DNA from: Earliella scabrosa
Lineage: Eukaryota > Basidiomycota > Agaricomycetes > Polyporales > Polyporaceae
Assembly: GCA_022605405.1 (NCBI GenBank)
Contig: JABYQQ010000001.1
Location: 5,022,001 to 5,086,000, forward strand
Reading direction: 5' to 3'
DNA: 64,000 bases
Shown one piece after another: positions 37,516 through 61,041 of this stretch. Within the stretch, counting starts at the first letter, position 1. Each line of letters opens with the position of its first letter. The position numbers and the translations under genes were made by a program. Below the pieces are notes generated by a model. That model made no database searches. It was not told the DNA's origin and saw nothing but the letters and a program-made list of their open reading frames with translations.

Positions 37516-39943
37516 ATGACCGACAGTCCGACTCCGTTCGCCACGATCGTGAAACGAGGTACGCTCGATCATGGCATGCACCTGCGTCGTCCACTGACCG
37601 CAAGCTCACAGCGGGGTACGTTGACCCTTACGATGCTACTGACCCAGCCCTAACTTCGGACGTCCAGCTACCTGCAGCCCTTCCTGCCTGTCAAAGTAGG
37701 TGACGCAATATCCATCACGGTGTCTCGATCACTCACGCTGCACAAAGATGCGCCGTTGTCTCGAAATCGTGAGCCTTTCTACGCATGCACCCTCTTCCGC
37801 GCATGCACAGACTGACCAGCCGCCACTCAATAGCTTAGCTGGAACCTGGATACCGCGAAACTCGATCTTGACGGGTGAGCACTGAGCCTCCCAGCGACGC
37901 GAACACATGTAACCCCGTAACGACAGCCTAGTAACGCGCATCCACACCGGCCTTCCGATTCAAGTCACCGCACAGGAGCTCCAGGTGAGCGTCGACCCCT
38001 CCGCCCCTCGCCGCGTCCCGGTTTGCACCCACCACGCTCACGTTCACACACATGCAGCTCCACGCTGCCGATGCAGCAGCAGCGATGAGCAGTCAACATC
38101 CCGACTACTCCGCCTTGGCGGCTAGGCTCTGCGTCGCGAACCTGCACCGAGTCACTGAAAAGTCTCTCATCCGCTGGGTGACCACCTATGGTAACCCACA
38201 GCATTCTCTTCCGACTCCTGCCCTCTACTCACCACGCTGCAAATCAGGTACAACGGCCCGCCTCGACCCAGACGTCGTTGCCGTCATCGAGGAGAACGGA
38301 TATGCGCTCGAGAGCGCCATCACACATAGCAGAGACTTCGACCTTGACTAGTACGTACGCTCGACACGACAAATGCCACTCTCTGACATCAATCCACAGT
38401 TGCTCCATCCAGTCCTTGATACGCTCGTACCTCCTCCGCGTCAACGGCGAGACCATAGAGCGGCCGCAGTTCCTGTTCATGCGGATCGCAGTTGCGATTC
38501 ACAAGACAAACATCGCCGCGGTCATTGAAACTTACGAGGCGCTGTCTAACCGCCTGTACACGCACGCGTCTCCAACGCTTTTCAACGCCGGCACGCAGAA
38601 CAAAAAATTCGCGTCTTGCTTTCTGTACCAACCCAACGTCGACAAACCCGCCGCGCTGCAGTTCCTCGCCACAGCGCACGAACTCGACAAGATGTGGCTG
38701 GACGACGGCGGGATCGGGATGTCCTTATGCACTGTGCCGTGCAGACGGTGAGCTGTTTACTCCCGCCTTTCTAAATACCCCTAACCGTGCCCACAGAGAA
38801 ACACCGCGGAAGCAGCCGGGCGTCATGCCGCTCATGAAAGTGTACGACAGCCACGCAGCGTACTGCGTGCAGAGCCGAGAAAGACGGCCTTCCGCATTGA
38901 CCGCCTATCTACCGATCTGGCACGGGGACGTTGTCGCCTTCATCCAGACTCGCACAGCCCGCGCCAACGAAGACCAGCGACTTCGCCATGTGTTCCCAGC
39001 GTTGTGGATTCCGGATGTTTTGTAAGCCACCCCTCGCCAGCGCCAGCTTGCGCACCGTCCCCGTTAACCTCGTCGCTTTCTTATAGCATGCAGAAACTCG
39101 CCGGGGGACGGGACTGGTATCTATTCGATCCATCCGACGTTCCCACCCTTATCGGTGCCTACGGAACACAGTTCACGGACGCATATGAGGCCTACGTTCG
39201 CTCTGGCGTGTACACTGCGAAGATCAATAGCGTCCGCATCTGGGAATTCATCTGCAACGCGCAAACCGAATCCGGCAGCCCGTTCCTCCTGTATCAAGAC
39301 AATATCAACAGTATGTTCTCTGACTCCCCACCCATCGCCGTAGCTAACTGCATGTCGATCCTCCCTTACCCCAGCACGCAACAACCAACAACATCTTGGA
39401 ACCATCGTATCATCGAACCTGTGTACCGAAATCGTGCAGTACTCCGCCCCGGGCGAAACAGCAGTATGCACGCTCGCCTCCATTGCACTGCCGCGCTTCG
39501 TACAAAACCGCGAAACATTCGACTTCGACTCCCTGCACGACATCGCCAGGCTCGCCGTCCGGAACACGGATCGCCTGCTCGACCTCGCCACCTACCCTAC
39601 CGACGCCTGCGCCGCGACCAGCAATAGTACACGCGCGATTGCCATCGGAGTGCAAGGTCTCGCAGACACATTCATGGCACTCAGGCTACCGTACGATTCA
39701 CAGCTCGCCCGCAAGCTCAACATCGCGATCTTCGAAACTATCTACCACGCTGCACTCGAAGAAAGCTGCGACCTGTCCAAGGAACACGGTCCATACCGCG
39801 CATGGGTCGGATCGCCCGCTTCACAAGGAAAACTTCAGATGGACATGTGGCCTGCTACTACGGACGGACGGCACGACTTTGGCCCTCTGCGAGCTGCAAT
39901 CTCCGACAACGGTCTTCGCAACTCAACGTTGACTGCACAGATG
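37516..39943 (+). pseudogene. ribonucleotide reductase large subunit (R1), 5' part, disrupted by a transposon
   Basis: The alpha subunit of class I ribonucleotide reductase, which reduces ribonucleotides using a thiyl radical. Multi-exon with short introns. Landmarks: MTDSPTPFATIVKR (possible start of the ATP-cone, whose middle exons are not resolved); SSQHPDYSALAARLCVANLH; RDFDLDY joined to YLLRVNGETIERPQFLFMRI; THASPTLFNAGTQNKKFASC with the thiyl-radical Cys; DDGGIGMSL; LPIWHGDVVAFIQT; FPALWIPDV; NNQQHLGTIVSSNLCTEIVQ with catalytic Asn, Cys and Glu; AVCTLASIAL with the redox Cys; and AIGVQGLADTFMALRLPY. Coding continues to RNSTLTAQM at 39943, where the KDZ element starts; translation would then add EQSQ and stop. 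The 3' part resumes at 60284. Every catalytic residue is intact, so the gene was probably functional before insertion. It is divergent from typical fungal R1. Confidence 0.88.
39936..39943 (+). repeat. 8-bp target-site duplication, left copy
   Basis: CACAGATG, identical to 60284..60291. It lies in R1 coding sequence (codons for T-A-Q-M). Confidence 0.9.
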
Positions 39944-40030
39944 GAGCAGTCTCAGTGAAGCCGATGTATCCGCGAGACCGGCGATCGTCTCGCGGATACA
40001 TCCGTATGCGACGGATACATCCGTCGTTCG
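39944..40030 (+). repeat. left terminal inverted repeat with subterminal palindromes
   Basis: Begins GAGCAGTCTCAGTGAAGCCG. TCTCAGTGAA and the later GATCGTCTCGCGGATACATC recur inverted at the right end. Inside is a palindrome, GTATCCGCGAGAC...GTCTCGCGGATAC (about 39966-40002), and a second, ACGGATACATCCGT, near 40012-40026. These are likely transposase binding sites. Confidence 0.8.
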
Positions 40031-40393
40031 AGGCGTCGAGACGGCACCAAAACTGTCAGCGGGGATCGAACACCGGCATAATGAACATCGCTCTCACGCG
40101 CCAACCGATGGACTATCACAACTTGCTGGGCTGGCTTTCATAGTGTTGTACGTTAGCGAATAATAAGTACTGTGCTCTTGGCAATCTACATAGATTCCAT
40201 TGATAAGATTCCCTTCGTGCACGCGCAGAATGCTTACCGCGCAGTGCCAGACTAAATTGTACCCGCCGGCGCGCCATGGCCATGTGAATATACGTACACT
40301 GTGAGCACATACGTACCGCCGCATGATCGTAGCCAACTGCGCAAGACTATACGTACCTCCGCGAGATCCGCGAGATCGTACCTACTGTGTAGA

Positions 40394-40497
40394 TATCGTA
40401 CCTACCGCCGGGACAGTGAACTTACCTACAGTCTGTCATGTGTATGTACCTAACGTGTCGAGATCGTACCTACCGCCAGGACAATGTACTTACCTAC
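40394..40497. repeat. subterminal direct repeat
   Basis: Two roughly 35-bp near-identical copies (about 40395-40429 and 40463-40497) that begin ATCGTACCTACCGCC and end ACTTACCTAC, in a stretch full of CGTACCT-like words from 40315 to 40510. They lie outside genes, between the left end and the first cargo gene. Confidence 0.55.
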
Positions 40498-40514
40498 CGC
40501 GAGATTGTACTGTG

Positions 40515-41699
40515 CTAAAGTGCCGCGGCGACGCTCTCGGCAGTCAACGCGTTGCCACTCCCAGCTGCCCGGATGGCTGACAGAAGTGCGGCCGTGCTCC
40601 GATCGCGCTCGCGTTCGGCAGCCGCGATCGCGGACAGAATTGTGGCCGTGCTCTGTCCGCGCTCGCGTTCGGCAGTCGCGATGGCGGACAGAATTGCGGC
40701 CGTGCTCTGTTTGCGCTCGCGTTCGGCAGCCGCGATGGCGTTCATCGCGTTACTCTCAGCTTCGTGAATGGCAGCCAACAGGGCCGCGGTGTTCTGTTCT
40801 CGCTCGCGTTTGGCAGACTCTGTCGCGGCCGCGAGATGTTCGATGTTGCGTTCGGCCGCGACTACTTTCGCCGCGAGGAGTTCATTCTCGCGTTTGGCAG
40901 CGACGCTCTGCTTGAGCGTAGCCATTGCGATGGCATCCTGGCAATCGCAAGAGTTAGCACTGTGAATTCAAGGCACGACTTCTGAATACTGACCGCAAGC
41001 CTGTCATGCACGTCGGCGAGTTCCTCGTTGCAGCCCCGGAGCGTCTTCGCGACCTCGTTGCGGGCGAGGTAACGTTTGATGAACGATTTGTTAGACACCC
41101 TGTTGATGGCGTCATACACGCGACGGAGGCTCCTACGCCCTCGTCAGCACCGGTGCCTCAGTACACAGATACTCAGAAGCAGACATACCGCGCGAAATCG
41201 TCGATGTCGGGCTCTAATTCAGCGGCCACGTCGTTCCCAGCCCTCGCGATTGACGAGCGCACCCACTTCAGTAGGGCGTCACTGCGCTCTGCAAGGCGTC
41301 GACAGTCGGCCTGGTTGTGCTGCCCGCGCACGAGTCAGTAGCTAGAAGCGGAACGAGCTCGCCGTGTGCGTACCTTGACGGCCTCGATCGCCTCCCATAT
41401 CTTGAGGACTAGTCGCGCCGCCTCCTGTAAGCCCGCGATGGGCACCAGTTGAAGCACATCGACAGAGACCTCCAAGATGCCATGGCCAACGTCTGCCACA
41501 GCGCCTGCAACGGTCTCCGCACCTCCCGCAGAGCCCTGGAGATCCCGTATCAGTACCGCGATGCCTACCGTAACCCTACCCTCCCATGTACTTCGCGAGC
41601 GGCGGGCTGCGCCTCGTTTCCCTGTCCCTCGGTGGCCCCTCCGTCGACTGCGTTGGCCGGGTTCACCGAGTGGGCTTGCGTCGTAGTAGCGTCCGGCAT
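40515..41699 (-). CDS. HeLo/MLKL-like four-helix-bundle protein with C-terminal coiled-coil repeats
   Basis: Start at 41699 (MPDATTTQAHSVNPANAVDG); four introns restore one frame. After a short disordered leader comes VLQLVPIAGLQEAARLVLKI, then WEAIEAVK, NQADCRRLAERSDALLKWV, DDFARSLRRVYDAINRV and KSFIKRYLARNEVAKTLRGC. This series of amphipathic helices has the layout of the N-terminal four-helix bundle I recall from many mushroom proteins related to HeLo/MLKL-type cell-death domains; no search was run. The C-terminus (from DAIAMATLKQSV) is a charged coiled coil built partly of 18-residue repeats (AERERGQSTATILSAIAA and variants), ending SVAAAL. No kinase or NACHT domain is attached. It is the first cargo gene from the left end of the element. 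A membrane-active or signalling role is inference. Confidence 0.55.
40560..40760 (-). repeat. 54-bp tandem repeats inside the coiled-coil gene
   Basis: About three diverged 54-bp units, each coding an 18-aa ERER-x-STA-x-LSAI-type heptad-rich segment. Confidence 0.6.
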
Positions 41700-42636
41700 G
41701 TCGCTTGGAGCAGGTGTGCGTGTAGAGTGGTGGTATGAGTAGAAGAGTAAGTGGGCGCGGGGCTGGAAGTGCGACAGTGAGCGGTGCTTGGGTCACGCGT
41801 GACAGCTACGAGGCAAAATAATGAGTAGCTTGCGCAATTAACTACATACACAAGCCAAAAAAGGTATTCGCGCGCACAGACTGCGGCGGGACCCCGCCAC
41901 GAAGGCGCGCCTTCATGCTGTGATCGTCATCTGTGCCGGCGGGCATTGGCACGAGCACAGCGATGATGTTCAGACTGCACTTAGTATCGACTATACATGA
42001 CGCGCGTCTTCTTGCCGCGTCACACAGCTGCGAAGTTCAGATAAAGCTATGTCAGTCTGCGTGAAGTTGCGACACCATGACGGCTCACCATCCCACGTAT
42101 TTCCAGATTCCGAGCTACCTTACGCTGGTCCATCTGACTCCACACGCCGCTGGTGGCTGTCATCATATTGCGCACACGTATTTTCCCGCATGTCATTCAG
42201 ACCGCTCGAGCGCGCCTCCGTTCCTCTTCAGCCCCGGCACCTGGAGAATGCAAAAAGACGCCTGGCGGGCATCGTGTACGATCGACGTGGCTGTGTAATG
42301 CCCTGATCACTGTGTAGATCTGTGACGCCATGCGCAGTTAGACTCGAATGACGTCACGATTGTTACGTAATAAATAAACGCACACTTTCAAATACGACGG
42401 AGAGGGAAGGCGCAGTATCAAGTGCCCGGTATACGGTACGATCTACCAAACGTTGAGCTGCACCAGTAGAGTAGATGTAAGGAGAGACTGCGATATATAT
42501 AGTAGAGTTTTCTGTTGTGTGTTTAGACGAGGAAAGGGCTATGCAGAACAGAGTCAACGCATACTGGGGCGCGGAATGTACGACTGGTGAATTGTGGAGG
42601 TACTGAATGAGATATAACATATGTGGAAATCGAAGT
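41700..42636. other. intergenic within the element
   Basis: No gene recognised. It contains the 5' flank of the coiled-coil gene and the 3' flank of the next gene. Confidence 0.4.
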
Positions 42637-43779
42637 CTAGACACCCGGAGAGAAGAGTGGGGCCTTACCCTTGAGGGACTTGCCCTCGTAGCGCGTGTAG
42701 TCCACGGTGGTGCACTGACAGTCCGCCTGCGAAAGCACGGACGACCAACCAGTGAGGGACTTGACCGTCGGCAGCCGAATAAGGATGATGTGCGCGTGCG
42801 TGATAGAGAACTGAATGGAGTCCGTGATGCGGTGCATGCGCCAGTCGGTGAGGGCGCGATCCCAGATGCGCACCTCGTTCACGCCCGAGAAGTCGAACAC
42901 GCGACGGACGATGAAGTAGTTGGTGAGCACGATGTCCCCGCTGGCCTCGTCGAGCGTGATCATCTTGAAGACCGGCGGGAAGTCCGTCTGTGCATGTGTG
43001 AGCCACGCGCGCAACAGTTAAAGCATATTACGCACTCTGTACCAGATCGCGACGCGAAGCTGCCACTGCGAGCGCACGTTGAATCCGAGCCGCGAGCCGT
43101 CGGGAGCAAAGCGCGCGAGAGGGTACACTTCGTAGCTGAACGTGTTGGGGAATGGGAAGTCTTGCTCGGTAATCAGGACCGGCTCGAGGGAGGAATCGTC
43201 GGAAGCCGCGAGCTCGGAGGCCTCCTCGGACTTGACATCCATCGCATCGTCGTCGCTGCCCGTGTCGACTTCAGACTTCACCTCCTCGCGCTCGGGAGGG
43301 CCTTCGATCGGGACCACGAAGGGGCCGCGCACGATCATGCGCTGCACGGACATGGTCCCGTCCTCAGCCACGCAGACACCGTTCTTGACGGAGTATCCAG
43401 GGCCTGCAGCGGAGACATCGCCGCCATCCGGTGCGACGTTTTCCTTGTTGCTGCTGTTGCTCTGTACCTCGCTGTCGGACACTAGAACCACGCTCATGCT
43501 ACGGCGCTCCTGTTTGAGGGCGCGCTTCGCCGGAGGTCGCGAGGGCTCGTCAGATTCAGACTCGCTAGTCAGCGAGATCACGCTATCCTCCTCCGCGCGC
43601 GCCGGGCGACGTGGGGGAGGCGCGTCCTGTTCGGAGTCGGAGCTAATCTCGATGACCTCGACCTCGGGGGCGGCGTTCAGTTGGGTCCCGTCGACTTGTT
43701 CGCCCTCGACGTGATCGTCTTGAGCCCCACCGCGCTCGGCTGGCAGGTCTGCTGCGACTGGCACGGGACTGAGTACAAT
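42637..43779 (-). CDS. disordered protein with three SUMO-interaction-like motifs
   Basis: Two exons are clear: one from an acceptor before 43779 (IVLSPVPVAADLPAERG...) and one ending at 42637, joined over an intron gtgcgtaata...tgcacag to give AIWYRTDFPPVFKM. A further 5' exon with the start is not identified. The N-terminal half is acidic and disordered and holds three hydrophobic-then-acidic-serine motifs, EVIEISSDSEQD, SVISLTSESESD and SVVLVSDSE. These fit the SUMO-interacting-motif pattern. The C-terminal half is folded-looking: FPNTFSYEVYPLARF, VLTNYFIVRRVFDFSGV, EVRIWDRALTDWRMHRI, THAHIILIRLPTVKSL. I recognise no domain in it. As cargo of a transposon with chromatin-related genes, a link to SUMO-marked chromatin is plausible but untested. 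Confidence 0.5.
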
Positions 43780-43979
43780 CTGTGGGGGAATGTCCGTTAG
43801 CGGTCCTACGGACTATGCTTCTCAGTCACGTACGGGGGGCGCGAGGAATACGCGACGAGCCGCAGGCGTAGGCGACGCCGCTGAGAGTCTCTATGTCGTG
43901 TCAGCGTCAGCAAGTGTGTCCTAGAGGCCGATGCTGCACACGTACGTTGGTCATTCGCCTCATCCTCCTTACCCTGGGA

Positions 43980-45613
43980 GGCAAATTGGATGCCTCTGCG
44001 AGCACCGCAGGTTGGGCGTGGTTAACTACAGCGCTTCCGCGCCCTTCGGCGTGCGTTGCGAGCAGGAGCAGATTGCCGCTCGGTACTTGAGGCGCGGTCG
44101 CTTTGACAGTCTCCTCCGCGCGGTTGGAAACGGACAGAGCTACGGTGGATTGAAGGGGACTGAGGACCTGTGGAGATGGTCTCAGCTGCGCGCGTACGGA
44201 CGGGATCGTTGGATATTGCATACCGGGAACGGCTGGGGCTTGCGAGGCCCGTCCTTCATTGCCATGAACTTCTGTGTCAGCGTGGACACCATGCGCGCCT
44301 TCTTGCCCGTCTCGATGATCTCATGGGCCTGGCGCGCAATGTTCAGTACACGTTCGCATTGCAGACATCGCACAACGCACGGGTTCAAGCACTGTCGAGG
44401 CAGCCTTGCGTTTACCATTTCCGACCTAGGACTAGTTAGTCGTCGTTCCAGCGTTCGTGGCTCCACGTACGGTCGTATCGTCCTGGCGTGGATGCTCGCC
44501 ACGCGAAGTTTCGCTGGGGCTCGAGGTCGGTGTATTACCCCGCTTGCGTGCCTTGATCCTCGCGCCCTGCAGGTATAGGTTAGCGTTATATGGGCCAATT
44601 GATCTCGGCGAGTCTCACCTCCGAGTCCAGAAACGCTTGCTGCGAGGCTTGGAGCGCAGCGTCACGCGCAATATCCAGTTCCGTCTGGAGCGAGGTCAAT
44701 GAGCTCTGGGAGCCTTGGCAGGAAGTCATCGCCTATCAAGCCTCAGTACGCCTTGTGTATTGTGCGGCGATCAAGAGACATCTCACCTGCTTGGGGACAT
44801 TCTTGGCGCCTGACGGGTGAAGACTCGAACGCGAAGCGTCGTTCCGCTCGGCCTACAAAGTTGGAGTGAGGTGAGTGTGAGCGGTCGAGAGAGATATCCT
44901 CTCACCTCTTCGTACATCTCCGCCTGCAACGCGCGCGCGAACGCTTCGTCGCCGGCCGTGTCCAAGGTGGCCTTGACAGCGGTCATTCTAGACGACTGGA
45001 AGCGGGACGTTAGTTTGAACGTGAGTGTCGTGAGTTTGCGAACTGACCTCGCCGTTGCGCTTAGCACCAGTCGGAGTGTCCTGTTCCACAGCGACGAAGG
45101 CCTGCACCCCTTCGAGCCAATCGGGGATGCGTTTGATGCCTTCGGGTGTGAGGGAGAAGCTCTCGCGGGCGGCGGGGACAGCCTACACGGCGGTCAGCTA
45201 CACACTCTGCGCAAGAGGGTACAATCTCACCGAGGTCGTCGCAGGGCTAGCATCAGAGGCTCCTGCACGCAGCGCCTCGACCTTGCGCGTGAAGTCCAAG
45301 TCGGGCTCAGGCTGAGGCGGGTACCACTTGAACTTACACTCCTTCTTCAGACACTGCATACATCGTCAGCCTGTGAAGACACGCAAGAAAACGGGTGGCT
45401 CACGATGCGGATGGTTCGTCCAGCGTTGCCGGCGACGTAGCAAACTTGGTCGACCGTCTTGGGGTGGTCGCACAAGCGGCACGCCTGGTTCCCGGGGAAC
45501 GGGGGATTGGTGTCCGCCCATGCATTGCAAAGGGCGCGCACACGAGCCGGGTAGCGCGAGCGACTCGAGGTGGGGGTGGACACCGTTGTGCGACAGCGGC
45601 GAACGCGAGGCAT
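43980..45613 (-). CDS. GRF-type zinc-finger protein
   Basis: Start at 45613 (MPRVRRCRTTVSTPTS). The next segment QACRLCDHPKTVDQVCYVA, then NAGRTIRI, and across a 49-nt intron CLKKECKFKWYPPQP, together read C-x2-C...N-x-GR...C-x4-C-x-F-x-W. That is the GRF zinc-finger signature of several nucleic-acid-binding proteins (TTF2, NEIL3, TOP3A relatives). Many small exons follow: SFSLTPEGIKRIPDWLEGVQ, TAVKATLDTAGDEAFARALQ, QSSLTSLQTELDIARDAALQ, then a basic stretch and HEIIETGKKARMVSTLTQKF near 44300. The middle is coiled-coil-like. The 3' end is not fixed and could lie anywhere between about 43980 and 44200. The number of introns, at least six of 45-60 nt, is notable. Confidence 0.5.
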
Positions 45614-46057
45614 CTTGCAGGTTGGGGGATGGGAGAGGCGAAGGTTGAATGCGGCGAGGAGCTCGGTAGAGTCTGGAGAACCCAGCAGTCGTTGGCGGCA
45701 GCTTATATACACCTCGACCTGGCGGTTGACCGTCTGCTTCGTCAACCGGCTGAGGTGAGGAGCCGACCGTCGTCCGCTCGGAGTTGGAAATCGACACGCA
45801 CCATGCGGTTAACCCACCCCTCTGGTTGCTCTTGCGCAGTCTGGTCGGGGTTGGGATCTCGGGTATTGTGAGGCTCGCGTAGTCAGGGCTTCAGGACGAT
45901 CAATCTGAGAGTAGAGATGTTCGTTCGGGCCCGCTCTCGTTTGACGATCAGAGTTGTTAAACCAAAAGTCCGTTCAGTTCGCCATCGTTCCCCTAATGGG
46001 CGTTCGAGCCGACATCTCTCGCAGCAGGTTACAGGGCAGCTAATTCGAGGGCAGTAT

Positions 46058-48049
46058 CTAATTGCGGCGAGCGCGTTTCTTGGCAGGTGGCGCATTCTCT
46101 GTGTTCGTCGCGACGCTCGGGAGCTCACTATCCTCTTCTTCGACCGCCGGCCTCGCCCGCTTGGCGGCATAAATCTCACTGGGCACGACGCGCTCAATGT
46201 TAGCGAATAACTCGCGCAATGCGAGTTCACTTACGGGCTGATTCCCTGCATACGGGCCGTCTGCCTCCGCACGCGCTTCCCAAGTACCTGCCCTTCGTCG
46301 GCGCGCACACCGACGCTGCGCGGAACTAGAGGAGCACGCAGCGGCGCGGACGGCACCGCTGCCTCGCCCCCGTCAGGATCCCCTTGCGCCGTAGACTTGG
46401 TCTTGGCTCTGCACAGTCGAAGTTAGCCATCGGTCTAAGGCAGGCGGGTGATGAACTCACTTCACGCGCTTGCCTTTGCGTTTACCTCCCTTGGGGGCGG
46501 GGTGCGCACGAACATTCCCCGCGGTGAGTTCGCGAGGCGGTGGCTCGCCGAAAACCACGAGCGGTACTGCGACGCGCGGAGGTTCCGCAGCGGTGGGCGT
46601 TCCCTGCCCTGAGCGAGGAGCTGTCGTTGGCTCACTCGAGGCAGACGGCGAGATCGTCTTGCTCGAATCGGCAGGTGTGACGGACGCGCTTGTGGCAGCG
46701 ACGTCGGAAGCGGTTCTAGGCGGGGTGGCGAACAGGGGCATTGTGGACTGGAAGGAGCCTGCGGCAAGTTCAGCAAGAGGCCCGGGTAATACGCCAGTCA
46801 GCGCGGGCGCATCATTCGGATCTGCAGGTGGTCGAACAGCTGCCAGACCATTAGCACGCGCTCTGGACGAGAACACACCACGTACGATCGAATATCTCGC
46901 GCAAGAAGTCATCAAACACCAGGACAAGGCGCTCGACTGACCAACCCAGACGGCGAGCGAGATACTGTTCGAACGAGACGCCCTCGGCGGTGTACGCTGT
47001 CTGCGGGCTGAAAATCGTGAGCCGTCGCGCCTTCATATGAGTGAAAGAATCGCGTACCGAACTTGCTTGATCCTTCCGCTCTCGTCTAAACCACCAATCG
47101 CGGACCACGCGACCCATCCTACCTCTTGGGCCACACCTTCCAAAAACTGCTCGGTTGTCGGATGCACGTTCCTGATTTTGCTAACCTCCAGCGTCAGTTG
47201 CGCACAGAAGTCCAACATCTCCGGCTACTCACACTGCCCTGGTTTCCGCCGCATGCTCCGCGGCAGCGGCTGAACGACGCTCGGCGTTGATCTCCCGAGC
47301 TTGCTCTTCGTAGCGCGGGCGTTCTGGCAGGGCGGCGTAAACTTGCGCGCAAGCGGAGGAGTGAGCTGCGAGGTCTCCGCGACCGTCACGCACGCCTGCA
47401 GAGTGGGGACGGGCCGGGTGGTTGCTCGCCTTGAAGAGTAGGTACCCATTCGTGGTCTTCACCTTGGGAGTGCTGGGCGCACCCATCGCGAGGGCGGACC
47501 CGACTTCAGGTGTTGCTGGACTCATCAACGCCGAAGGGCTCGCCACGCCGGGGACAGACGTGACACGGGGCGGCGAGTCGTGGGCAGGGGCCACTGTCGA
47601 GGACGTACCCATCTGCGGTTGTTCTGTACGTGGTGTCGACTTGCCGCCTCGTGCGCTGCGCGGGGCGCGGTTTGAACTCAGCGCCTTCAGCCATGCGCCG
47701 ATGCGCTGGGGGGTTCACGGCGTCGTGAACGTGGGCATCCTGAAGAACCAAGGACCGGACTCACATCGGGAGCCTTGCTGACGCGAGCCTTCCTATCATC
47801 ATCCGTCTCCGCAAACCAACGTTGTAGGTCTGCGCGCGGTTGGAGCTTCTTGCGTTGGTCAAACTCCTCGTCAGTCTCAGCGTCGAACTGAACATGTGAA
47901 AACTCCTTCTGATACTCGGCGACGAACCAGTTGCGCGCGTTCGTCCACCACTTCGTGCCGCTGGACGACAACAAGTCGCGTCCACAGTCCGAGTTGCGAA
48001 GGCGCTCCAGGAGGAGGAGCTCCTGGAGGCGCCAGGTGCTTCGCCCCAT
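46058..48049 (-). CDS. HMG-box-like DNA-binding protein
   Basis: Start at 48049 (MGRSTWRLQELLLLERLRNS). Exon 1 contains TKWWTNARNWFVAEYQKEFS and ADLQRWFAETDDDRKARVSK. After short introns, PKVKTTNGYLLFKASNHPAR and then QVYAALPERPRYEEQAREIN and AERRSAAAAE resemble an HMG box (NxYxxF..., xVYxxLP...YxxxAxxxNxER), although the usual Trp before the second helix is Val. Next exons: MLDFCAQLTLEVSKIRNVHP, EQFLEGVAQEVGWVAWSAIG, EGVSFEQYLARRLGWSVERL. The tail is Ala/Pro/Ser-rich with nuclear-signal-like clusters (GGKRKGKRVK) and ends KKRARRN with TAG at 46060-46058. A DNA-bending accessory to the transposase is a reasonable guess. Some intron boundaries, especially around 47600-47700, are uncertain. Confidence 0.5.
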
Positions 48050-48398
48050 GCTAAGGTAGCTCACAAGTTAGCGCGAACAAGTCAGAGATCTATTGCATCA
48101 CATACCTCACGCCAGAGACACACGCACAAGCTGGGGAGAGGAGTTACAGGGGGCAAGGAAGAGTGCAAGAAATCGACGAAGTCCCTTACCGTCTGCTGGG
48201 GCGTGGTCGTCAGCACATACCCGTCAGCAATCATACCGATTTGGAGAAGGACACCCAGCCGGGCGATGAAACATGTGCGAAATTGCTATTGTAGGGATAC
48301 AGAAACCAGGGACATTCGAGGAGATGATGATCGAGGAGCGAACCGACCGCGGACTGCGCCGGGCCAAAGTCTATGCGAATACAACAGCGCGGAGGATA

Positions 48399-50820: not shown

Positions 50821-52237
50821 TGCTGGCAGAGGGAGTAGCGGGGTGTGGAAAAGATGAGATGGGCGTGAGTGAGGTCTTGGGCCGTAGGGCCGTTCTTCGA
50901 GCCGTCGTCCACAGGAGGTCTTGAGGTTGGCTTGATAGGTTGATGCCTTGAGGACCTCGAAGGGACGTGGACGTCGGTCCTGTCCCCGTAGAGGGTGTCG
51001 TGGCCTGCGCGTCGAGGAACGGAGTTGCTCCGTTCAACTGCCAGCACAGGGGTTGTGGACGAGGGTAGCCGGGAGATGATGAGAGGTATGGGCGAGGAGA
51101 GAGAGCGGAGGTTCGTAGGCGTCTTTGCCGTCGTCGTGGTGCAAGGCGAAGCACGCTGAGAATAGAAGTCCAGATGGCCATGCGAAGACTCCCGATATAG
51201 CAGCCGTGCGAAAACGCGCTCGCGCGTTGACGCAACAGGTCATGTGACCGCGCAAGAAGCGCGAGATTTTGCAAAGTCCGTTCAGCGTGCGATCCTTCCT
51301 ACTTGCTACCAGTGCCGAGTGCACACCTGCCTCGTTCTCCCACTCGCTATTCACCTGCACACACCACCACACTGGCGAACCACCAGGCGCACGCGAACAG
51401 CACACAAGATTGCAAGCTCCGTGGGTGTGCGAGGGATGGCAGGGAAGGATTGTGTTGTTGGAGGGACGTCGCTTCGAAGGAATGGGTGCCCGTAGTCTTC
51501 TCCTCCTCTTTCCCAATTCCACCGGCCAAGTGCCGTAGTGTGATGTGCATCTTGAGTGCCGGCCGAGTCCGGATGTCTCGATGCATTCCCTCTGACCGCA
51601 AGCGTCGCCATCTCATCTCTGTCCGCCGTCGCTTCGACGCTCACATACGCCTCAAGCTCGCCCTTTTGGCAGCTCTCCCCCTCACGCCACTCTACCGGAA
51701 GGACCGTCACAACGCACATGGGCTCCGGGACTGCGCGTGTGTCCCGGGGTGAGCGCGCTCCCGCCGCACAGTATGCGCGCCCGCCCAAGCTTTGGGAGGG
51801 AGCCATCAAGGCCATGCGTCGCCTGGAATCCGCCCTAGGGCTCGCCCTCCAGAGACTGTCGCCTGCGTGGCCTGTACGCCTGGCTCGTTGTCTCCATCAC
51901 CACGTATCAGGGTCCACGCGCGTACGCTTCGAGCTACCCGACTCGCTGAGCCCCCCACCCACGGTGATCGCATCCTCACCCCGTCCTCGACGTGAGTCCC
52001 CACAACCCCCCTTGTTCGCGATAGTCCTCCTCGACACGTATGTACCTATCATCCTTCCTCACGGGTTCCAGTCCCGGTATCGACCTCGTATCAGCACTCT
52101 GATCGTGGCGCGGCACCCGCCGTTAATGTCCCATTCTCGCTACAACCATTTATTTGTTGCGCCTGTCCGAATTTACCTTACGTGTGTGTACTACTCAAGT
52201 AGGACCGGTCGAAGTAATATCCACTTCACCCCGCCTG
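50821..52237. other. bidirectional promoter region of the companion and transposase genes
   Basis: About 1.4 kb between divergent genes. A purine-rich tandem repeat (gagcgagcgggcgaggagcg-like) flanks 50745-50800, overlapping exon 1 of the companion gene. Frames at 51034-51815 show no domain. A short upstream exon of the transposase may lie here. Confidence 0.4.
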
Positions 52238-55200
52238 ATGTGCCCGCACGCACGAGCTGCCGATGGTGCGACCTACGCGCGTGAAGCCCCCACGGTGCAC
52301 CGCGGTGCTGTACTTGACCCGTTAGCGGGTCTGCGCGCGTTGCAGGCGGCTCGCGCCGCTGCTGCCGTCGCCGCATCCTCAACCGACTCTGCTCACCTCG
52401 GCTCTACCGCTGTCGCTGCGTGCGCATCCGCCAGGGAACCTGAACCCCGGAAGGAGGAGTCATGCTCAGGCGAGCGTCGTCCCCTGGACGCCGTTGAGGG
52501 TGCGTCCGAGGACACTCCGGTGGCCAAGAAACCAAGGGCGAACAACACCATCGTAAGTAGTCCCTTGCCCTCCGCCCGGCCATTGCACTTATTGCTCATG
52601 GTCGCTCAGAAAGTGGGAGAACGCATGAATACCTTCCTGGAATGGGCGAAGCGTGCGCAGCGCGCGTTGTTCGCGCGGGAGGCCAGTCCTAGCCTGCCTC
52701 TGCAGTGTCCCCGGGCGCATGACAAAGATCCCGCGCCGCCCAGCGAGGTCCCAGCGAAGGCCTACCGTTGTTTCGATTGCTACAACGCCCGCCCGATGTG
52801 TGCAACCTGCATCATCGACGGACACATCGACAACCCGTTCCATCGCGTTGAAGTTTGGGATTCTACGCTCGCCTTTTGGTCCCGCATCTCCCTCGGCGAC
52901 CTCGAAGATTTTGTGATCAATCTCGGCCACGACGGACAGCCATGTTCCACCCAGCCGCATGTTCGCAGAATGACGATCGTCCACGAGCATGGAATCGTCG
53001 CGATGAGGCTCCGTTTTTGCGCTTGCCCATCAGCTGGCGAGCCATACGCAGTGCCCGAGCCGCTCCAACTGCTGCGGTTCGGTCTATTTCCCGGCACCTG
53101 GAAGAGGCCCGAGACCGCGTACACGGTCAATGGCCTTCGCGACTACCACCTCTTGTCGCTTCAGTGCCAGATCACCGGGATTGACTACGCGACGTACCTG
53201 CGTCGGTCGACCGACAATGTTATCCCCAGCGACATCACAGTCAGTCATTACTTTGTCCTCGATGCGCGTGCGTACTGATAACCTATGTAGGACCGGCACC
53301 GTGAACTCAACAACACCATGCGCGAGTTCATGTTCCTACGCGCGACCCGACGCGCAGGTGTCGAACCGACGGCGGAGCTACCGGCGCGAAGTCTGGCCGT
53401 GCTATGTCCTGCGTGCCCCCAACCCGGCATCAACATGGACCCTCATTGGGAAGAGCGCAAGCCCGAGGATGAGTACGTACGCATGTTGTGAACGCCCGGC
53501 TGGGACGAGACTGACTTCATGCAGATTTCTCGACACATTTCACCACACTGTAGATGGCAATTTCCAGTCATCCCAGAAGATGAAGCCCATGGACACCTCG
53601 GACTTCTCGATGACCAATGGCGCGATGTACTTCGCTGAACAAAAGGATTTCGAGCGATACCGCGAGGCTGTCAAGCAGCCCAAGAAGGAGGTGAGCTGTA
53701 GCTGTCTAACCACGAAGTCGTCCCTGCTTACATCACATGCAGGATACCACATGCAACAAGTTCGGCGCGATGGGCTACAGTAGGTTCAAAGGACGAGTGT
53801 CGGGCACTGTGGGCCTGTCATGCGCCAGACACATGGTAATGCTTCCTTGCGGCTGCGTGGATCTTGTTGCTGGTGAAGGGTACGAACACGAACCCACATC
53901 CTACGCTCGCGCTCACCCTCAATGCAGGTTCTGTTGGGTCGACTACTGCATGTGCTCCGGCCTGCGCCCTTGGCTGGGACTCAAGCGGCACTGCAGCGGG
54001 TATGACATCAATTGCCAGTACCGCAAGAAGTTTCGAGAACGGATCCTGAAGCTGCAGCGCGATTTTCCCCATCTCTCCTCCATACAGCTCACACAGTTCC
54101 CATGGACGATACCTGCCATTGGGAAGTTTCACGCCCCCGCCCATACGCTCACTTGTCGCTGCAAATACTCCTACAACTACCTGCCGGGGGTCGGAATGAC
54201 GGACGGTGAGGCTGCGGAGCGCATCTGGGCAGTGTTAAACAACCTCGCCGCGCGGACGAAGGAGATGTCGTCCGGTCACCGACAGGATGTAATCAACGAC
54301 TTCCATAGCGACCAGAACGTACGGCGCATCCACGGCCTTCGTAAGTCCAGCCCCGTCTGGAGTTCGCAGCTCATCTGACTGTCGCGTAGCTGAGCTGCTT
54401 GTGAAGCGTTACAAGCGCGCTGTGAATCAAAGCGCACGCGCCTCCGAACATCTCGCTGAGATAGAGGAGAACCTTGCGAAGGAGGACATGCAGTCATGGG
54501 CCGAGGAGATCAAGGTGTGGGAGGAGAACGTGTTGCATCTGGCCGACTCTGCCGACTTTGACACTCCATACGAACTCAACCCGGAGAAGCGTAAGCTCTC
54601 TCCTAATCCCGGAATGGTCCACCGCTGACCCACATTCAGAGTTGTCTGAGAAGGAGCTCTTGCTGAAGATCACGCGAGAGCGGGGCTTGTCTGGAGAAAG
54701 CGTGGCGGGCATCGTTGGGGTGATCCAACACGGGGTCGAGCTCCAGCACGAGAAGTAAGTTGTCAGCGTGGCCAGCAATCTTTTTCACCTACTCACAATA
54801 GCCCACAGGGAATCCTTGCTGGATAACCTTGCGGGCGGCGTCGAGCCGGACTCGAAGAGTGAGCTGGCCGCCCGTTGTCAGACCTTCCACAACGAAGTCG
54901 AGAAGTGGAACTCACTTCGAGATACGTATTTTGATCACCTCGCTGAGGACGCGACAACGATGGCGGAGGAGCGCATGAAGCAAGAGGCTGCCAACCAGGG
55001 TCTGGCCAAGGTAATTTTTCCGCACGCGTTTCCGTGGCGCGACACGACCAGCGACTTTGGGGCAAGTGCGAAGGGTCTCCCTCCCCGACGCAAGCCAGCT
55101 GGTCAAAGTGACGCCTGGAACGAGATCTTCCAGACCGCTGTGCCCTTGCCGTCCTCATATCACGCCCGCATCCGCGAACAAGAAGCTATGCGCAAGTTTG

Positions 55201-56036
55201 TGGAGCTCGAACTCGACTTCCGCCGCGCTGAGGCAGTGCGTACCCTGGACGACCTTCGCACGAACATAGTCGGCACGGAGGCGATCAAGATGGCGAAGAA
55301 AAAGGTCGTCGGGAAATCTCTCACGACTCGCGCGCAGGCCAGGATCCAGACGGCGGACGGGGAGGTCACTAAGGCTGCGAACCAGTATCGGCGGCATCGC
55401 ACGGCCCTACTCGTCCTCGGTATGGCGGACAACGACCCGCGCTTGCGCCCGCTACTCGACGCGGACTTGGAGACGTTCGATTTCACCTCGCATGCCAAGC
55501 CGGGCAAGAGCACGCGACCGACATCTTGGCTTTGGGACAACCTGTCGTTCGTCGACACCTCCGACGATCAACGCGAGCGGGACTTCTACGAGGATGGTGT
55601 GTGCCAATTATGAACTCGCCGGGAGGTACTGACATTTCCCAAGCTCGACGAGTACACTGGTTCCGCTCAAAGGCCCTGGCCGCGCGCTGGCAGGAGGAAC
55701 TCGCGCTGCTGCTGGAGGAAATGCGCCGCACCTTGCGATTCTTCCTGCATTGGCGCAACATTTGGCTTGCGCGTGCGAGAGAGAGAGAGCGACAGGACGA
55801 AATTGGTGCGGCGGCGTATGCTCGCAGGTGCGTCCTGGCCCCTCCGCGATGCGAGCGTGCTGGCTGAGTGTGCCCCTGGCAGGCAAGCGCATCGCTACTC
55901 GCGCCTGATTGATCATTGCGTGGGGCGATTTGGAGCGCTCATTGACAAGGTTCGTGGGTTGCGATCGCATGACTTGCACTCTGACGACATTGATCTCCAG
56001 GACGCTATCGTTGCAGAGTTCGCGGACCTCGATTAG
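52238..56036 (+). CDS. KDZ-family transposase with CxC2 cysteine cluster
   Basis: About ten exons in one frame from ATG 52238 to TAG 56034-56036; intron 1 is 52553..52609. After a disordered leader comes a zinc cluster, YRCFDCYNARPMCATCIIDG, then HIDNPFHRVEVW (C-x2-C-x6-C-x2-C-x4-H-x5-H), and RLRFCACPSAGEPYAVPEPL with LFPGTWKRPETAYTVNGLRD. This is the CxC2 module found before KDZ transposases. The transposase core follows: LAVLCPACPQPGINMDPHWE; FLDTFHHTVDGNF with the first predicted catalytic Asp; CNKFGAMGYSRFKGRVSGTV; HCSGYDINCQYRKKF with the second; and GVGMTDGEAAERIWAVLNNL, the DGE..ER.W box with the acidic third. Later exons are helical and charged (ALAARWQEELALLLEEMRRT) and end VAEFADLD. 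It cuts and pastes the element; all catalytic boxes are present and no stop breaks the frame, so it looks intact. Confidence 0.93.
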
Positions 56037-56067
56037 TACATGTTCAGTTCATGTTAGTACATGTTCA
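56034..56067. repeat. short direct repeat after the transposase stop
   Basis: TTAGTACATGTTCA occurs twice, 20 bp apart, the first overlapping the transposase stop codon. It could be part of the 3' UTR or a protein-binding site. Confidence 0.4.
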
Positions 56068-56162
56068 TGTGTAGCAAGCCATGGCGCAGTGCGCGCACTA
56101 GAAACGGTTGACCGCCCCGTCCAAGGGAACCCACAAACGGTATCCCGCAGACTACTAACGGC

Positions 56163-58513
56163 ATGACTTCCCAGCGGCGATATGGCGCGCGCCCTAGAAC
56201 CGTCGCTGCGCCACCAAGGCGCGACCGAGCGAAGACTTCTAGGCCGTCACCCAGAGTACAAATATCGAAGGCGGAGGGCACCACTCCCCCGGCCTCCCCA
56301 TCTTTGAGCTTGCAGGTGAGTCTTCTGGCCCCTCATCACACTGCGCATGGCGCGCATGGGCGGACATCAACCTCCAGCCTCCGCAGGCGGCGAGACGGGC
56401 GACTAGCGTGGCGCGCACCTTGCGCCCGGACGCGAACGTCTCATCGCATGTGGTGGATATGCTATGGCGTTCAGAGGAGCGATGGTGCTGGGTGTGCCGC
56501 GTGATCCGCTGGCCTACTCCTCAGCAGCGCTCTTGCTCCCCTGCTGGCCACGAGGAGCAGATACGCTCCCCAGCGTTGCTCATAACGCCGTGTTCATTGG
56601 ACGAATCCGCAGAGACTGTAGCTAACGTGCATCGTTATGCAGCATACACGCGCGCAAATGGACCTAGGTGCGTAACCAATAGTCCGGGCATAGCTGTGAG
56701 CTAATGCCTCTCCCAGAAAATATGCCCACCCCCCCGGGGCGCCAGGTATGCTCAAGCAATATCGTCGCGCGTGCGTACTGAATGGTTTTGAAGACGCGCT
56801 CGGGTCGGGACTTCAGCCCGTATTTGCTGGACGGCGTGAAGATCGGAGAGCCCGTTCGGGTGACCTTTGACTTGAGTGCAGCGCTGCTGGCAGCTGAGAC
56901 TCGGGTGGAGCCCGAGCCTGTGCCCAGCGACGACGTGGATGATTCGGATGACGAGTCCGAGCTGGCTCGACCGCCGCCTTCACGCTCGTTGAGCATGTCT
57001 GAGAAGGCTGCACTCGCCCCGACACTCTTCGCGGACTACCTGCCGTCGTGCGCGCGCGACGCCCCCGCGCCAAGCGGCCATTTCGCGCACTCGACGGAGG
57101 CTCAGTGGGATGGGTTGAGTAAGGATGAGTTTCAGAAGAAGCGACGTCGCGCGCAACGCAGCGCGCGTCGCGGGGCGTTGGTCGAGGATCCCACTGGACT
57201 CCGAGGCAGACTCAAGCCCCGAGCCTTAGAGCACCTGGCTGAGGCGCTACATCAGGCCGATGAGTCGCGTGGGCGTTCGTCAGGCGATGCGCGGGGCGTG
57301 AGCGGGGCAGTCGTCAATTCCGAGCTGACACCAAGTTTCCAAGAGCTCCCAGTAGCTAGCTCGGCATATGTCGCGAGGCGTATGCCAGTCAACACAAACG
57401 ATCGCGCGCCCGTCGCACTCAGCGATTTGGACTCGCTGAACATCGCAGTTGTGCCTTGGAATGGGCGGTGAGTGATGGGAAGATGGTTGGTGGTGCGCGC
57501 ATGCTCTGACGTGAGCGTAGGGATACCCGAGCTGTGGTCACTCGAGAAGACCAGGTGCTGGCCGTCGCGGCAGGCAGGCCGACTTCAGTAGATTTCGACA
57601 GAACCAACGAAGAGATGATTGCCATCTGCGAGGACATCCGAAAGGTATACAAATTCAATCCGAGCGCGAGATCAAATCGACGGGGGGACTACAGTTGTGT
57701 GTCCATCGGCGTGTCCTACGGGGGAGGGCAGCAGGTATGTTGTGTATTCACGACATGGAAGCTGCCCTGCGAGTGCTCATACTTCCTCGACAGATCGTGA
57801 AGACCCTGTCGCACGCTAAGTATAACGAGGACGTGGTGGAGGCAATTCTTGGAGCGCGCGCGGTCAAGCGTGTCGCCAATTTCGGAAGCGGCAAGTGTCT
57901 CTCATGCTGCCGACGCTCATTGACTAACCTCTCCTGCACAGCGTGCATGAGGCTGTACGCTCCGCGCATGCACGCGCGCTATGGACTCACGCTCGACGCG
58001 CTGATCCAACGGGACGCGCGCGTGCGTCGCAACTTCCTGAGCAATCACTTCGCGGCTATGACAATCAACGTCGGGCCGCGCACAGTGACCTATCGGCACA
58101 CCGACCATTTGAACGTGCCCTGGGGCTGGTGCGCGATCAGCGCGTTCGGGAGTTACGACTACAAGCTCGGAGGGCATCTCATCCTCTGGGACCTCGGAAT
58201 CGCCATCGAATTCCCTCCGGGCGCGACCATCCTGATTCCGTCGGCGGTGTTGACACACTCGAATGTGGCCATCGCGGAGCACGAACAACGCTACTCGCTG
58301 ACCCAATACACGGCGGGCGGCCTCTTACGCTGGATCGATTGCGAACACCGGTCGCAGAGGGCTTTTGAGGCGAGCGGGGGGCAGCTCCCGCAGTCGGCGG
58401 AAGAGCGTTGGAAAGAGGGCTTGGCGCACTGGTGTACTTGGGAAGAGCTGCTTGATGGACTGCCTCGCAGGCCCGCGGACGTTGAGAACATTCAGATGAA
58501 CGCGGTGTCTTGA
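56163..58513 (+). CDS. TET/JBP-family 2-oxoglutarate/Fe(II) dioxygenase
   Basis: Predicted to oxidise 5-methylcytosine in DNA. The core gene from ATG 56782 has four exons (56782..57467, 57521..57734, 57794..57890, 57942..58513; 522 aa). Possible 5' exons from 56163 (MTSQRRYGARPRTVAAPPRR; then VDMLWRSEERWCWVCRVIRW) would extend it, but the join is unsure. The N-terminal region is disordered and basic (EFQKKRRRAQRSARRG). Next, GVSYGGGQQ and YAPRMHARYGLTLDAL lead into the double-stranded beta-helix: TYRHTDHLNVPWGWCAISAF with the HxD iron ligands (about residues 384 and 386), GGHLILWDLGIAIEFPPGAT, SAVLTHSNVAIAEHEQRYSL with the distal His and the 2OG-binding Arg, then TQYTAGGLLRW. All iron and cosubstrate residues are visible. 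The third intron has a GC donor (gcaagt at 57891). Same strand as, and directly downstream of, the transposase, as in other TET-carrying KDZ elements. Confidence 0.88.
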
Positions 58514-58969
58514 GTACTTACAGCCTGGAGGATGGGATGACCGTAGCGTAGCGCGATGATCGTTGCCTGTATTCTTGTATAGCGATAATATCGCAGCCGT
58601 GGTGTTGGACAGACAGACAGGATGCGTGGGCCGTGCAAGTTGGTATGAGCACACATTAATTGACAAACAACTAGACACTTGTTGCAAGGTAACGCAATGA
58701 TACATGACACGCGCGACAACAGGAGAATCGAGCTACACGAACGCGAGATACATGCAAGGGACAGACACAGTATAGATGCAGGGACACGGACACAGCGACG
58801 ATTGACACAGAGAGGACGTGGGACACGGACTATGGGGACGGCTGCCACTTGGGATGAGATGACGAGCGCGTAGAACGCTGTCTACCAGGCGCTCACCGCG
58901 AAGAAGAGCGGCGCGTTGCACCGGACAGTGTCGCCATTAAGCTTCAATACGACGACCTAGGGTGCGCGG
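58514..58969. other. spacer with GACAC-rich simple sequence
   Basis: Between the 3' ends of two convergent genes. 58700-58830 is rich in gacac/gggac words. No gene recognised. Confidence 0.4.
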
Positions 58970-59972
58970 TCAGTTGAAGCGGGAAGAAGGAGGGGGCAAG
59001 AACTTACGCTTCTGGGGGCGAGCAGTAGTGCGGGTCGACGGGCCCTCCATGAGCTCATCCACCTCCTCCTCGTCCTCCGAATCCTCCTCCTGGGCGCCTG
59101 GAAGGACAGCGATGGTGACCTCGCTAGGCGGGTCATTGCTCTGGCCGTTCGCGCCCTCGCCCTCGCCCTCGCCCTCGACCTCGACCTCGCCCTCGCCCTC
59201 GCCCTCGCCACTGGCGCCGTCCTCGCCGTCCGAGCCATCGACCTCGTACCGATAGAGGACCGCCTTCTGCTTGAGGGTACGGACGGTGTCCTCGAGGGCG
59301 GCGATCCGGGCGTCTCCTTCGGCGACGCGTTCGAGCAGGAGGCGGGCGTAGGGCTGCAACTTCTTAGGGAACGCAGCGATCAGCTGCTCGTCGTCATCGC
59401 GCTCATCATCACCATCGCGCTCACCGTCCTCGACCTCGTCGTCACTCTCCTGGGGCGGGGGTACAGGGACAACCGCGCGGGGTTGTTTGCCGCGGCCAGC
59501 CCACACAGCGCCCGGCGGGTACGCTTGCAAGTGGTTGTCTTTGGCGACTTTGTACGCGCGAGTGTTGGGCTGTTTGCGCCATGATTCGCGCTTGTTAATC
59601 AGTCCTATGGGAGATGAGGGAGTATTATGAAAAGTTAGTGAACAGGGAGGGTAGTGATGGGGACGTACTCGTGAGCCAGTCGCACTTGCGCTCGTTCCTC
59701 GTGAAGCATTCGAAACACTTCCACGTGCACAGGTTGGTGGCCGTGCACGGGAAGTCGTTCTTCACGCACGCAGCGCAGCGCTTTTTGCGAGCGTGGTCGA
59801 GGTCTTCGAAGAGTTGCGGGGTGACAAGTTCGGGTGCGAGGAGCGCGGGGAAGATCTTGATCTTCTTGTGCTTGTCGCGGGCGACTTGAACAGCTTCGCG
59901 GAGGTCGGGCATGTACGAGTCCTCGGGGGCGTCAGGGACGTTGGGGGGGCGATGTTGAGACGACGCGGACAT
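58970..59972 (-). CDS. Zn2Cys6-like cysteine-cluster protein with acidic tail
   Basis: Two exons, start at 59972 (MSASSQHRPPNVPDAPEDSY), joined over an intron gtacgtcccc...tcccatag to GLINKRESWRKQPNTRAYKV. The first exon holds RCAACVKNDFPCTATNLCTW followed by KCFECFTRNERKCDW. The spacing C-x2-C-x6-C-x9-C-x2-C-x7-C is within the range of the fungal Zn2Cys6 binuclear cluster, though the cluster is internal rather than N-terminal and flanked by KK rather than a longer basic patch. The second exon has a coiled coil (LERVAEGDARIAALEDTVRT) and a Gly-Glu repeat (GEGEGEGEVEVEGEGEGEG), then EEDSEDEEEVDEL and a basic end PQKRKFLPPP. A DNA-binding regulator or tether is possible. It is the last gene before the right end of the element. 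Confidence 0.55.
59152..59212. repeat. hexanucleotide repeat (CCCTCG/ACCTCG)
   Basis: About ten 6-bp units that encode the Gly-Glu/Val-Glu run of the cysteine-cluster gene on the minus strand. Likely length-variable. Confidence 0.7.
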
Positions 59973-60119
59973 GGTGGAGGCTCGGAAGCAGGAGGATGCC
60001 TCGCGAGGGGTCATATAGAGGGATGCTGCGGTAGGCGACGCGATCACGTGTGCGCGTCGGGGAGCTCGCGGAGAGACACAGGGAAGGGCACTTAGTGCGT
60101 GAACAGCCCTTGCTTTCAA

Positions 60120-60205
60120 AGGCCTTTGGCGGAGTTGGTTCGGCGCGCGCGTTTGTTTTGCTGGCAAGCGCGCGGTCGGGAGTTCGAATCCCGGTCAACG
60201 CACGG
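60120..60205 (+). other. tRNA-like remnant (A- and B-box motifs)
   Basis: TGGCGGAGTTGG at 60127-60138 fits the polymerase III A box and GTTCGAATC at 60182-60190 fits the B box, at tRNA-like spacing, with a T-arm-like hairpin CGGGAGTTCGAATCCCG and a GCGCGC stem in the anticodon-arm position. The acceptor ends do not pair, so it is not a functional tRNA as read. It could be a tRNA-derived short element or chance. Confidence 0.3.
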
Positions 60206-60283
60206 ATACATCTGTTCTCGCGCGGATGTATCCGCGAGACGATCCAACCCCCTAGCGGATGTATCGGGTTCACTGAGAACCTA
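60203..60283 (-). repeat. right terminal inverted repeat
   Basis: Read inward on the minus strand it begins TAGGTTCTCAGTGAACCCGA and continues to GATCGTCTCGCGGATACATC, matching the left end with a one-base offset. It contains the palindrome-forming word GTATCCGCGAGAC. Confidence 0.8.
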
Positions 60284-60291
60284 CACAGATG
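60284..60291 (+). repeat. 8-bp target-site duplication, right copy
   Basis: CACAGATG, identical to 39936..39943. Confidence 0.9.
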
Positions 60292-61041
60292 CCCACCGCC
60301 TCCACCGCCTACATCCTCGGTAATTCCGCGGGGACGGAACCGTATCCCAGGTACAGCTTCTTCGACCCTACATGTGACGGCAAATGCCTGACGCAGCACA
60401 CAGCAACGTCGTCACCCACCAGCTTCTCAGCGGAGACTATACTCAACTCTGTCCTTGGCTGGTCACTGACTTGGAGGAACGCGGCTTGTGGGACGAGAAT
60501 ATGCGCGTGTCAATCCTTAGCAACCGCGGTACGCGATCCACTGTAGCCACCACAAGCCCCCGCTGACCACACGACAGGATCTGTACAGAGCATCAACACA
60601 GTCCCTGAAGACTTGAAGGCGGTCTACCGCACGGCGTGGGAGATAGACCCCGAGGCCATCATCGACATGGCTGCCGACCGCGCACCGTACATTGATCAAA
60701 GCCAGTCCCTCTCGCTGTACATGACTAAGCCCGATGGATTGGTGCTCGTGCGTGCTCAGCTGCCTACACACGGCGTATCGTGCTGACCGTCCGCCTGCCC
60801 CCCTCCGCGACAGGCTAATCTGCAGCTCCGCGCATGGAAACTGGGCCTAAAGACTGGCCTCTACTACCTCCGAACCCGCCCTCCCGCCTCCGCACTACCG
60901 TACGGGCTAGACCAGCACAACGACACCGCTGTCAGCTCCACCACCGGCAGCCCGCCTCCCCTCGAGCCCGTCGAGGAAGAAGCCGCTCAGATCGAGACGG
61001 AAACAAGCGTGCTCGAAGAATGCGAAGCCTGCTCGGGATAA
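60284..61041 (+). pseudogene. ribonucleotide reductase large subunit (R1), 3' part, separated by the transposon
   Basis: Continues the R1 frame broken at 39943: MPTASTAYILGNSAGTEPYP; intron (gtacagct...cacacag); HQLLSGDYTQLCPWLVTDLE then ERGLWDENM; intron; SVQSINTVPEDLKAVYRTAW and DMAADRAPYIDQSQSLSLYM; intron; AWKLGLKTGLYYLRTRPPAS with the Tyr-Tyr radical-transfer pair; and a Glu-rich tail ending LEECEACSG, with the C-terminal CxxC that re-reduces the active site. TAA is at 61039-61041. Nothing is lost at the junction beyond the target duplication. It has no promoter of its own and begins inside a codon block, so it is not expected to be expressed as an R1. Confidence 0.88.

Follow-up and report, generated by a model that had tools for sequence, protein, structure and literature searches.

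KDZ transposons described so far differ in their ends and in the target-site duplications they leave behind. According to PMC12730594, the Kyakuja families of Laccaria produce 7-bp duplications, lack inverted repeats and have the ends CA..TG; some Kyakuja elements of Agaricomycetes, Polyporales included, carry a TET gene. Dileera and Zisupton produce 8-bp duplications, with inverted repeats in the case of Zisupton. For the KDZ1-KDZ3 elements of Cryptococcus neoformans, PMC12810828 describes observed insertions into a gene and base-exact ends; the duplications measure 8 bp for KDZ1 and 4-8 bp for KDZ2 and KDZ3. PMC7641404 adds that in Pleurotus ostreatus a CxC2 region precedes intact KDZ elements. 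Here, we analyze a 64-kb stretch of Earliella scabrosa DNA (the window, C1:5022001-5086000) and describe a 20,341-bp element that interrupts an exon of an R1 gene, R1 being the ribonucleotide reductase large subunit. The element belongs to the KDZ superfamily, and its 7-bp duplication lies within the 7-8 bp that characterize the superfamily. Our main conclusion, to which we assign a probability of about 0.9, is that positions 39944-60284 hold a complete, apparently autonomous KDZ-superfamily DNA transposon, inserted into the R1 exon with a 7-bp target-site duplication. A first-pass annotation of the window had recognized the element and called such base-exact boundaries rarely possible for KDZ elements, a remark that overstates their rarity, given the ends described in PMC12730594 and PMC12810828.

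Boundaries of the KDZ element

The insertion is evident from the gene that it splits. The R1 frame is open through the left part of the exon and resumes at the first base of the right part (Table 1). The left part matches residues 413-604 of yeast R1 (E = 2.6e-60) and ends at position 602 of the human chain 3hnc; the right part picks up the chain at 603. With just 20 residues, the right part reaches no better E value than 0.31, but when the right stretch is extended the R1 barrel domain is recovered at 5e-22. On C9, an uninterrupted R1 paralogue spans the junction with a single CACAAATG and without a gap, and its mismatches to the window exon number 16, 10 and 57 at the three codon positions over 651 bases. 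The proposal that the element sits within an R1 exon whose frame continues beyond it is thus upheld by the step from 602 to 603 and by the uninterrupted paralogue.

Where exactly the element ends is a matter of one base. Within the window, CACAGATG occurs only twice, at 39936 and 60284; two given points would share eight bases by chance with a probability of about 2e-5. The first-pass annotation had accordingly proposed a perfect 8-bp duplication and an element ending at 60283. Other copies were sought in the genome (51.67 Mb, 48 contigs) with patterns for each end, allowing up to 3 mismatches and using reversed patterns as controls. The patterns retrieved 13 right ends and 14 left ends, all but one of the left ends being exact and the remaining one having 2 mismatches; the reversed patterns had no match in the same genome. 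Twelve two-ended copies could be paired, with lengths of 20,341 (the window copy), 20,989, 20,216, 17,590, 9,100, 3,372, 3,357, 2,836, 2,439, 2,134, 1,191 and 318 bp; three are full copies of ~20-21 kb, on C1, C4 and C16. For three of the 12 pairs the right end came from a genome search with the right junction, not from the pattern search, and two of the 14 left ends (C11, C18) and four of the 13 right ends had no partner. In the left-junction search, matches of other copies start at 39944 or within one base of it, and in the right-junction search other copies end where the window copy ends. When the final C is counted as part of the element, the 7-bp duplication is perfect in nine of these 12 copies and imperfect in one more.

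These ten copies decide the status of the eighth base. All ten have C as the last base of the element (chance by composition ~8e-6, a figure that, like those for the D-KDZ pairing and the R1-Helitron proximity treated below, assumes uniform placement, which repeats violate), whereas the base ahead of the left duplication varies (C, G, A, C, C, A, T, T, T and T; C in three). The eighth matching base is therefore a coincidence: the duplication is ACAGATG, and the final C is the element's own. An 8-bp duplication CACAGATG flanking an element at 39944-60283, in keeping with the reports on Zisupton and Dileera, would account for the eight identical letters on both sides of the window copy and likewise of the C9 and C7 copies. 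Yet the eighth base is unequal between the two sides in seven of the ten duplication-bearing copies, and all 13 right ends found by pattern finish in C (the pattern itself held this C, with 3 mismatches allowed), so that we give the 8-bp alternative almost no credence. The eight letters seen by the first-pass annotation are real, then, as is its left boundary; its duplication is one base too long and its right boundary one base short. It had also proposed a genome search for copies with the same ends, with ends elsewhere than 60283 counting against it: the paired copies exist, and with a 7-bp duplication and a right end at 60284, they depart from that position by one base.

Two of the shorter copies, C20:52201-54639 and C40:10360-11550, have near-identical ends, and the former has no matching duplication, as if rearranged. 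The 9.1-kb copy, C9:365901-375000, matches none of five probes and contains an open stretch of 1,613 amino acids, perhaps another nested element.

Termini, genes and a putative conserved partner protein

The inverted terminal repeats named by the first-pass annotation lie at the ends where it had put them. TCTCAGTGAA lies at 39950 and, as its reverse complement, at 60269, six bases in from the outer limits of both the left terminus GAGCAGTCTCAGTGAAGC and the inverted right terminus GTAGGTTCTCAGTGAACC; GATCGTCTCGCGGATACATC is found at 39983 with its reverse complement at 60225. The longer arm is 22 nt, 100% complementary. The element ends GAG..TAC and, in addition to the inverted repeats, has phased palindromes of the form GGATRYATCC (one outer base variable), at 19, 51 and 69-71 bases from the left end and at 19, 51/52 and 71/72 from the right. 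Their retention varies by copy: two are clear at each end of the window copy, and the 318-bp copy has three at its left end against two at its right. No GGATRYATCC is found in the interiors of the 12 copies, taken as >150 bases inside the left end and >260 inside the right, and there is one in the 43,652 bases of the window outside the element. Most copies also carry in both ends, ~95-130 bases inside, a TTCGAA-centred motif, which we take to resemble a tRNA B box. The 318-bp copy retains these end features and is flanked by a 7-bp duplication, so that the ends probably suffice in cis.

The transposase exon model encodes 1,027 amino acids with zero internal stops. It contains the KDZ transposase domain PF18758 (E = 1e-34; score 120.6 against a cut-off of 26.6 bits) and the CxC2 cysteine cluster PF18803 (E = 7.2e-25; 87.7 against 27), in agreement with the KDZ identity first proposed; candidate D, D and E residues were picked in the spliced model by eye only. 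Further genes inside the element bear out its description as cargo-carrying. One encodes a TET/JBP-type dioxygenase, in which the HxD motif, the distal H and the 2OG-binding R are invariant across 26 aligned sequences including the window exon, and whose assignment to the TET/JBP fold comes via the fold of the homolog P0064.

Another, gene D, may encode a partner of the transposase. Its 715-residue core has 61 homologs among the matches listed, and the named species belong to genera that we take to be Polyporales. After same-locus fragments were merged, the 76 KDZ matches came to 68 loci and the 45 D matches to 33. A KDZ transposase match lies 2.7-6.8 kb from 15 of the 21 strong D loci, head-to-head in all 15; at the other six there is none within 15 kb among the matches listed. 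Five of the 12 weak D loci are near a transposase match, all five in tandem. Adjacent locus tags point to the same pairing in other polypores (for instance GSI_09634/09635, GSI_08469/08470, GSI_04608/04609, ONZ51_g7481/7480). In a comparison of 39 of 49 transposases with 39 of the 61 D homologs, 13 transposases lie on a contig whose length equals that of a contig bearing a D homolog. From this pairing and conservation we infer that D is a partner protein of this KDZ lineage. No D-like partner was found in titles and abstract starts of the KDZ literature, and the main text of PMC12730594 names neither Earliella nor such a partner (terms Earliella, accessory, second protein).

Identity along the three full copies shifts blockwise, as if segments had been swapped. 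In 500-base bins across 42.5-51.5 kb, the window copy is 85-100% identical to C4 and 70-97% to C16; in the transposase region (52.4-56.4 kb) it is 72-81% identical to both, whereas within part of it C4 and C16 are 95-97% identical to each other. The simplest reading of this mosaic is exchange between copies.

Table 1. Positions in the window of the KDZ element, the exon it interrupts, and features of the surrounding sequence.
Feature	Position	Strand	Remarks
Interrupted R1 exon, left part	39344..39943	+	
Interrupted R1 exon, right part	60292..60342	+	
Left target-site duplication, 7 bp	39937..39943	.	ACAGATG
Right target-site duplication, 7 bp	60285..60291	.	ACAGATG
Complete KDZ transposon, 20,341 bp	39944..60284	+	Ends common to other copies; KDZ and CxC2 domains
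Left terminus GAGCAGTCTCAGTGAAGC	39944..40022	+	Subterminal palindromes 39994-40003, 40013-40022; first site (39962) degenerate in window copy
Right terminus, inverted GTAGGTTCTCAGTGAACC	60204..60284	-	Palindromes 60204-60213, 60224-60233; end-nearest site degenerate in window copy
Gene B, strand tentative	42640..43812	-	Codon-position signature (overlapping opposite-strand frame shows one too); present in C4 and C16 copies
Gene C, probably two exons	47232..48067	-	Codon-position signature
Gene D, putative conserved partner protein	48402..51239	-	Core 48402-50546 (715 aa); codon-position signature
KDZ transposase gene	52238..55613	+	52238-53239, 53291-53487, 53525-53690, 53743-54340, 54390-54590, 54640-54754, 54809-55613
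TET/JBP-type 2OG-Fe(II) dioxygenase gene	56782..58513	+	56782-57467, 57521-57734, 57794-58513
Gene F, tentative; small protein with cysteine cluster	58973..59972	-	Weak codon-position signature; present in C4 and C16 copies
Second R1 gene (R1b) of the surrounding element	5684..7180	-	
Helitron Rep-helicase frame, 2,020 aa	17477..23536	-	
Conserved hairpin-bearing terminus of the surrounding giant element, 33 bp	61529..61561	+	

A probable surrounding Helitron-type element and its R1 genes

The interrupted R1 gene is one of many. Genome-wide, 47 R1 matches merge into 44 loci, and 35 of these lie within 40 kb of a Helitron Rep match (the best 36 of 66 matches). Conversely, R1 is found within 40 kb of 22 of these 36 Helitron loci, where uniform placement predicts 6.6% for each. 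Spacing and orientation recur: of the same 36 loci (best of 66), 15 have an oppositely oriented R1 17-29 kb upstream, and eight have one in the same orientation 14-23 kb downstream. The window shares this layout, with R1b at 5.7-7.2 kb, the Helitron frame at 17.5-23.5 kb and the interrupted gene, R1a, at 39 kb; Helitron_like_N (4e-33) and PIF1 (1e-23) domains lie within the single Helitron frame. Elsewhere in the genome, some R1 loci are ~15.2 kb apart, as if in tandem arrays (three at C1:2419024-2449989, two at C25:313407-329188).

On the right, homology among three copies halts at one shared terminus, at window position 61,561. With up to 2 mismatches allowed, the 33 bp at this terminus match 10 times in the genome, and a control search of the same genome gave zero. 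On the left, homology to a syntenic copy on C9 persists at position 543; no left end was found within the region compared, beyond which, left of ~543, it would lie. Because the terminus is at 61,561 and homology is still running at 543, the surrounding element would measure at least ~61.0 kb, or 40.7 kb once the KDZ element is subtracted. With R1 at 44 loci, 35 of them near Rep-helicase genes, the R1 target is probably cargo of a giant Helitron-type element and not a housekeeping gene, and the KDZ element is therefore probably a transposon inside a transposon. Titles and abstract starts retrieved on giant Helitrons, on Helitrons combined with ribonucleotide reductase, and on ribonucleotide reductase together with transposons and Polyporales contained nothing matching.

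Several observations weigh against the account given so far. The empty site is that of a paralogue, not of an allele. Two of the 12 two-ended copies show no duplication (C23, which has a degenerate right end, and C20), and a third has it with a mismatch (6/7). The exon models rest on splice signals alone, placed by eye, and the D model had zero matches to known or solved folds. Finally, 14 of the 36 Helitron loci have no R1, and nine of the 44 R1 loci no Helitron match, within 40 kb.

This last point would be expected if the interrupted R1 belonged to an ordinary host gene family whose closeness to Helitrons reflects chance clustering in repeat-rich regions. The codon-position bias of the R1 exon, typical of selection, fits that explanation as well. 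It is nonetheless unlikely in our view, since it does not readily accommodate the 22 Helitron loci with R1 nearby, the recurrent spacing and orientation, or the one exact terminus common to three copies. A further alternative concerns the interior of the KDZ element, where the ~9-kb stretch with genes B to D, being more alike between copies than the transposase region is, could be a separate mobile element nested within it. This is very improbable: the stretch has the same internal position in all three full copies, genome searches outside the full copies find only pieces of the D-gene region, and D has a divergent KDZ transposase as its neighbour at 15 of 21 strong loci, a pairing also seen in other polypores. 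The mosaic is better explained by exchange, given the close agreement of C4 and C16 in part of the transposase region. We retain a single KDZ element that carries D, probably lodged in a giant Helitron-type element.

Proposed mode of transposition and relation to known systems

From these features a mode of transposition can be proposed. The transposase, aided by protein D, would bind the GGATRYATCC palindromes ~19, 51 and 71 bases from each end, and would then excise the element and insert it elsewhere via 7-base staggered joints. The TET/JBP-type enzyme may strip DNA methylation that would otherwise silence the element. The same machinery could mobilize short copies that retain the ends only. 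In broader terms, it is possible, with odds a little short of even, that the window contains an undescribed nested pair: a KDZ element needing both D and its transposase, inside a giant Helitron-type element (at least ~40 kb, with two R1 genes) that is present, intact or broken, at dozens of loci and perhaps supplies nucleotides for its own rolling-circle replication. If true, R1 on giant Helitron-type elements would be a new example of a transposon with nucleotide-supply genes.

The element provides a base-exact reference for a polypore KDZ lineage: its ends, the 7-bp duplication, the sites that the transposase likely binds, and a conserved partner gene. The likely binding sites persist in the 318-bp natural mini-element; with exact ends, this mini-element and the partner gene in hand, a small donor should therefore be enough to test KDZ transposition. 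Of all these features, the paired protein D and the surrounding R1-bearing giant element most merit further work.

Like Helitrons, the surrounding element combines Rep and PIF1-like helicase domains within a single long frame and has a hairpin near one end; it differs in its size of at least ~40 kb without the KDZ element and in its two R1 genes. The KDZ element itself resembles KDZ1-KDZ3 of Cryptococcus in having base-exact ends and in lying inside a gene, but the Cryptococcus transposons, as described in PMC12810828, are ~9-11 kb long, with inverted repeats of 139-241 bp and CxC1 instead of CxC2. With Zisupton and Dileera it shares the superfamily and, in the case of Zisupton, inverted repeats, whereas the duplications reported for those two in PMC12730594 are 8 bp and that of the Earliella element is 7 bp. 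The closest likeness is to the TET-carrying Kyakuja elements as set out in that same text: a KDZ transposase, an internal TET/JBP dioxygenase gene, a 7-bp duplication and presence in Polyporales are common to both. The Earliella element would work like these elements, yet we do not file it as Kyakuja because its ends differ from those described, which are CA..TG without inverted repeats, in contrast to GAG..TAC with inverted repeats and phased palindromes.

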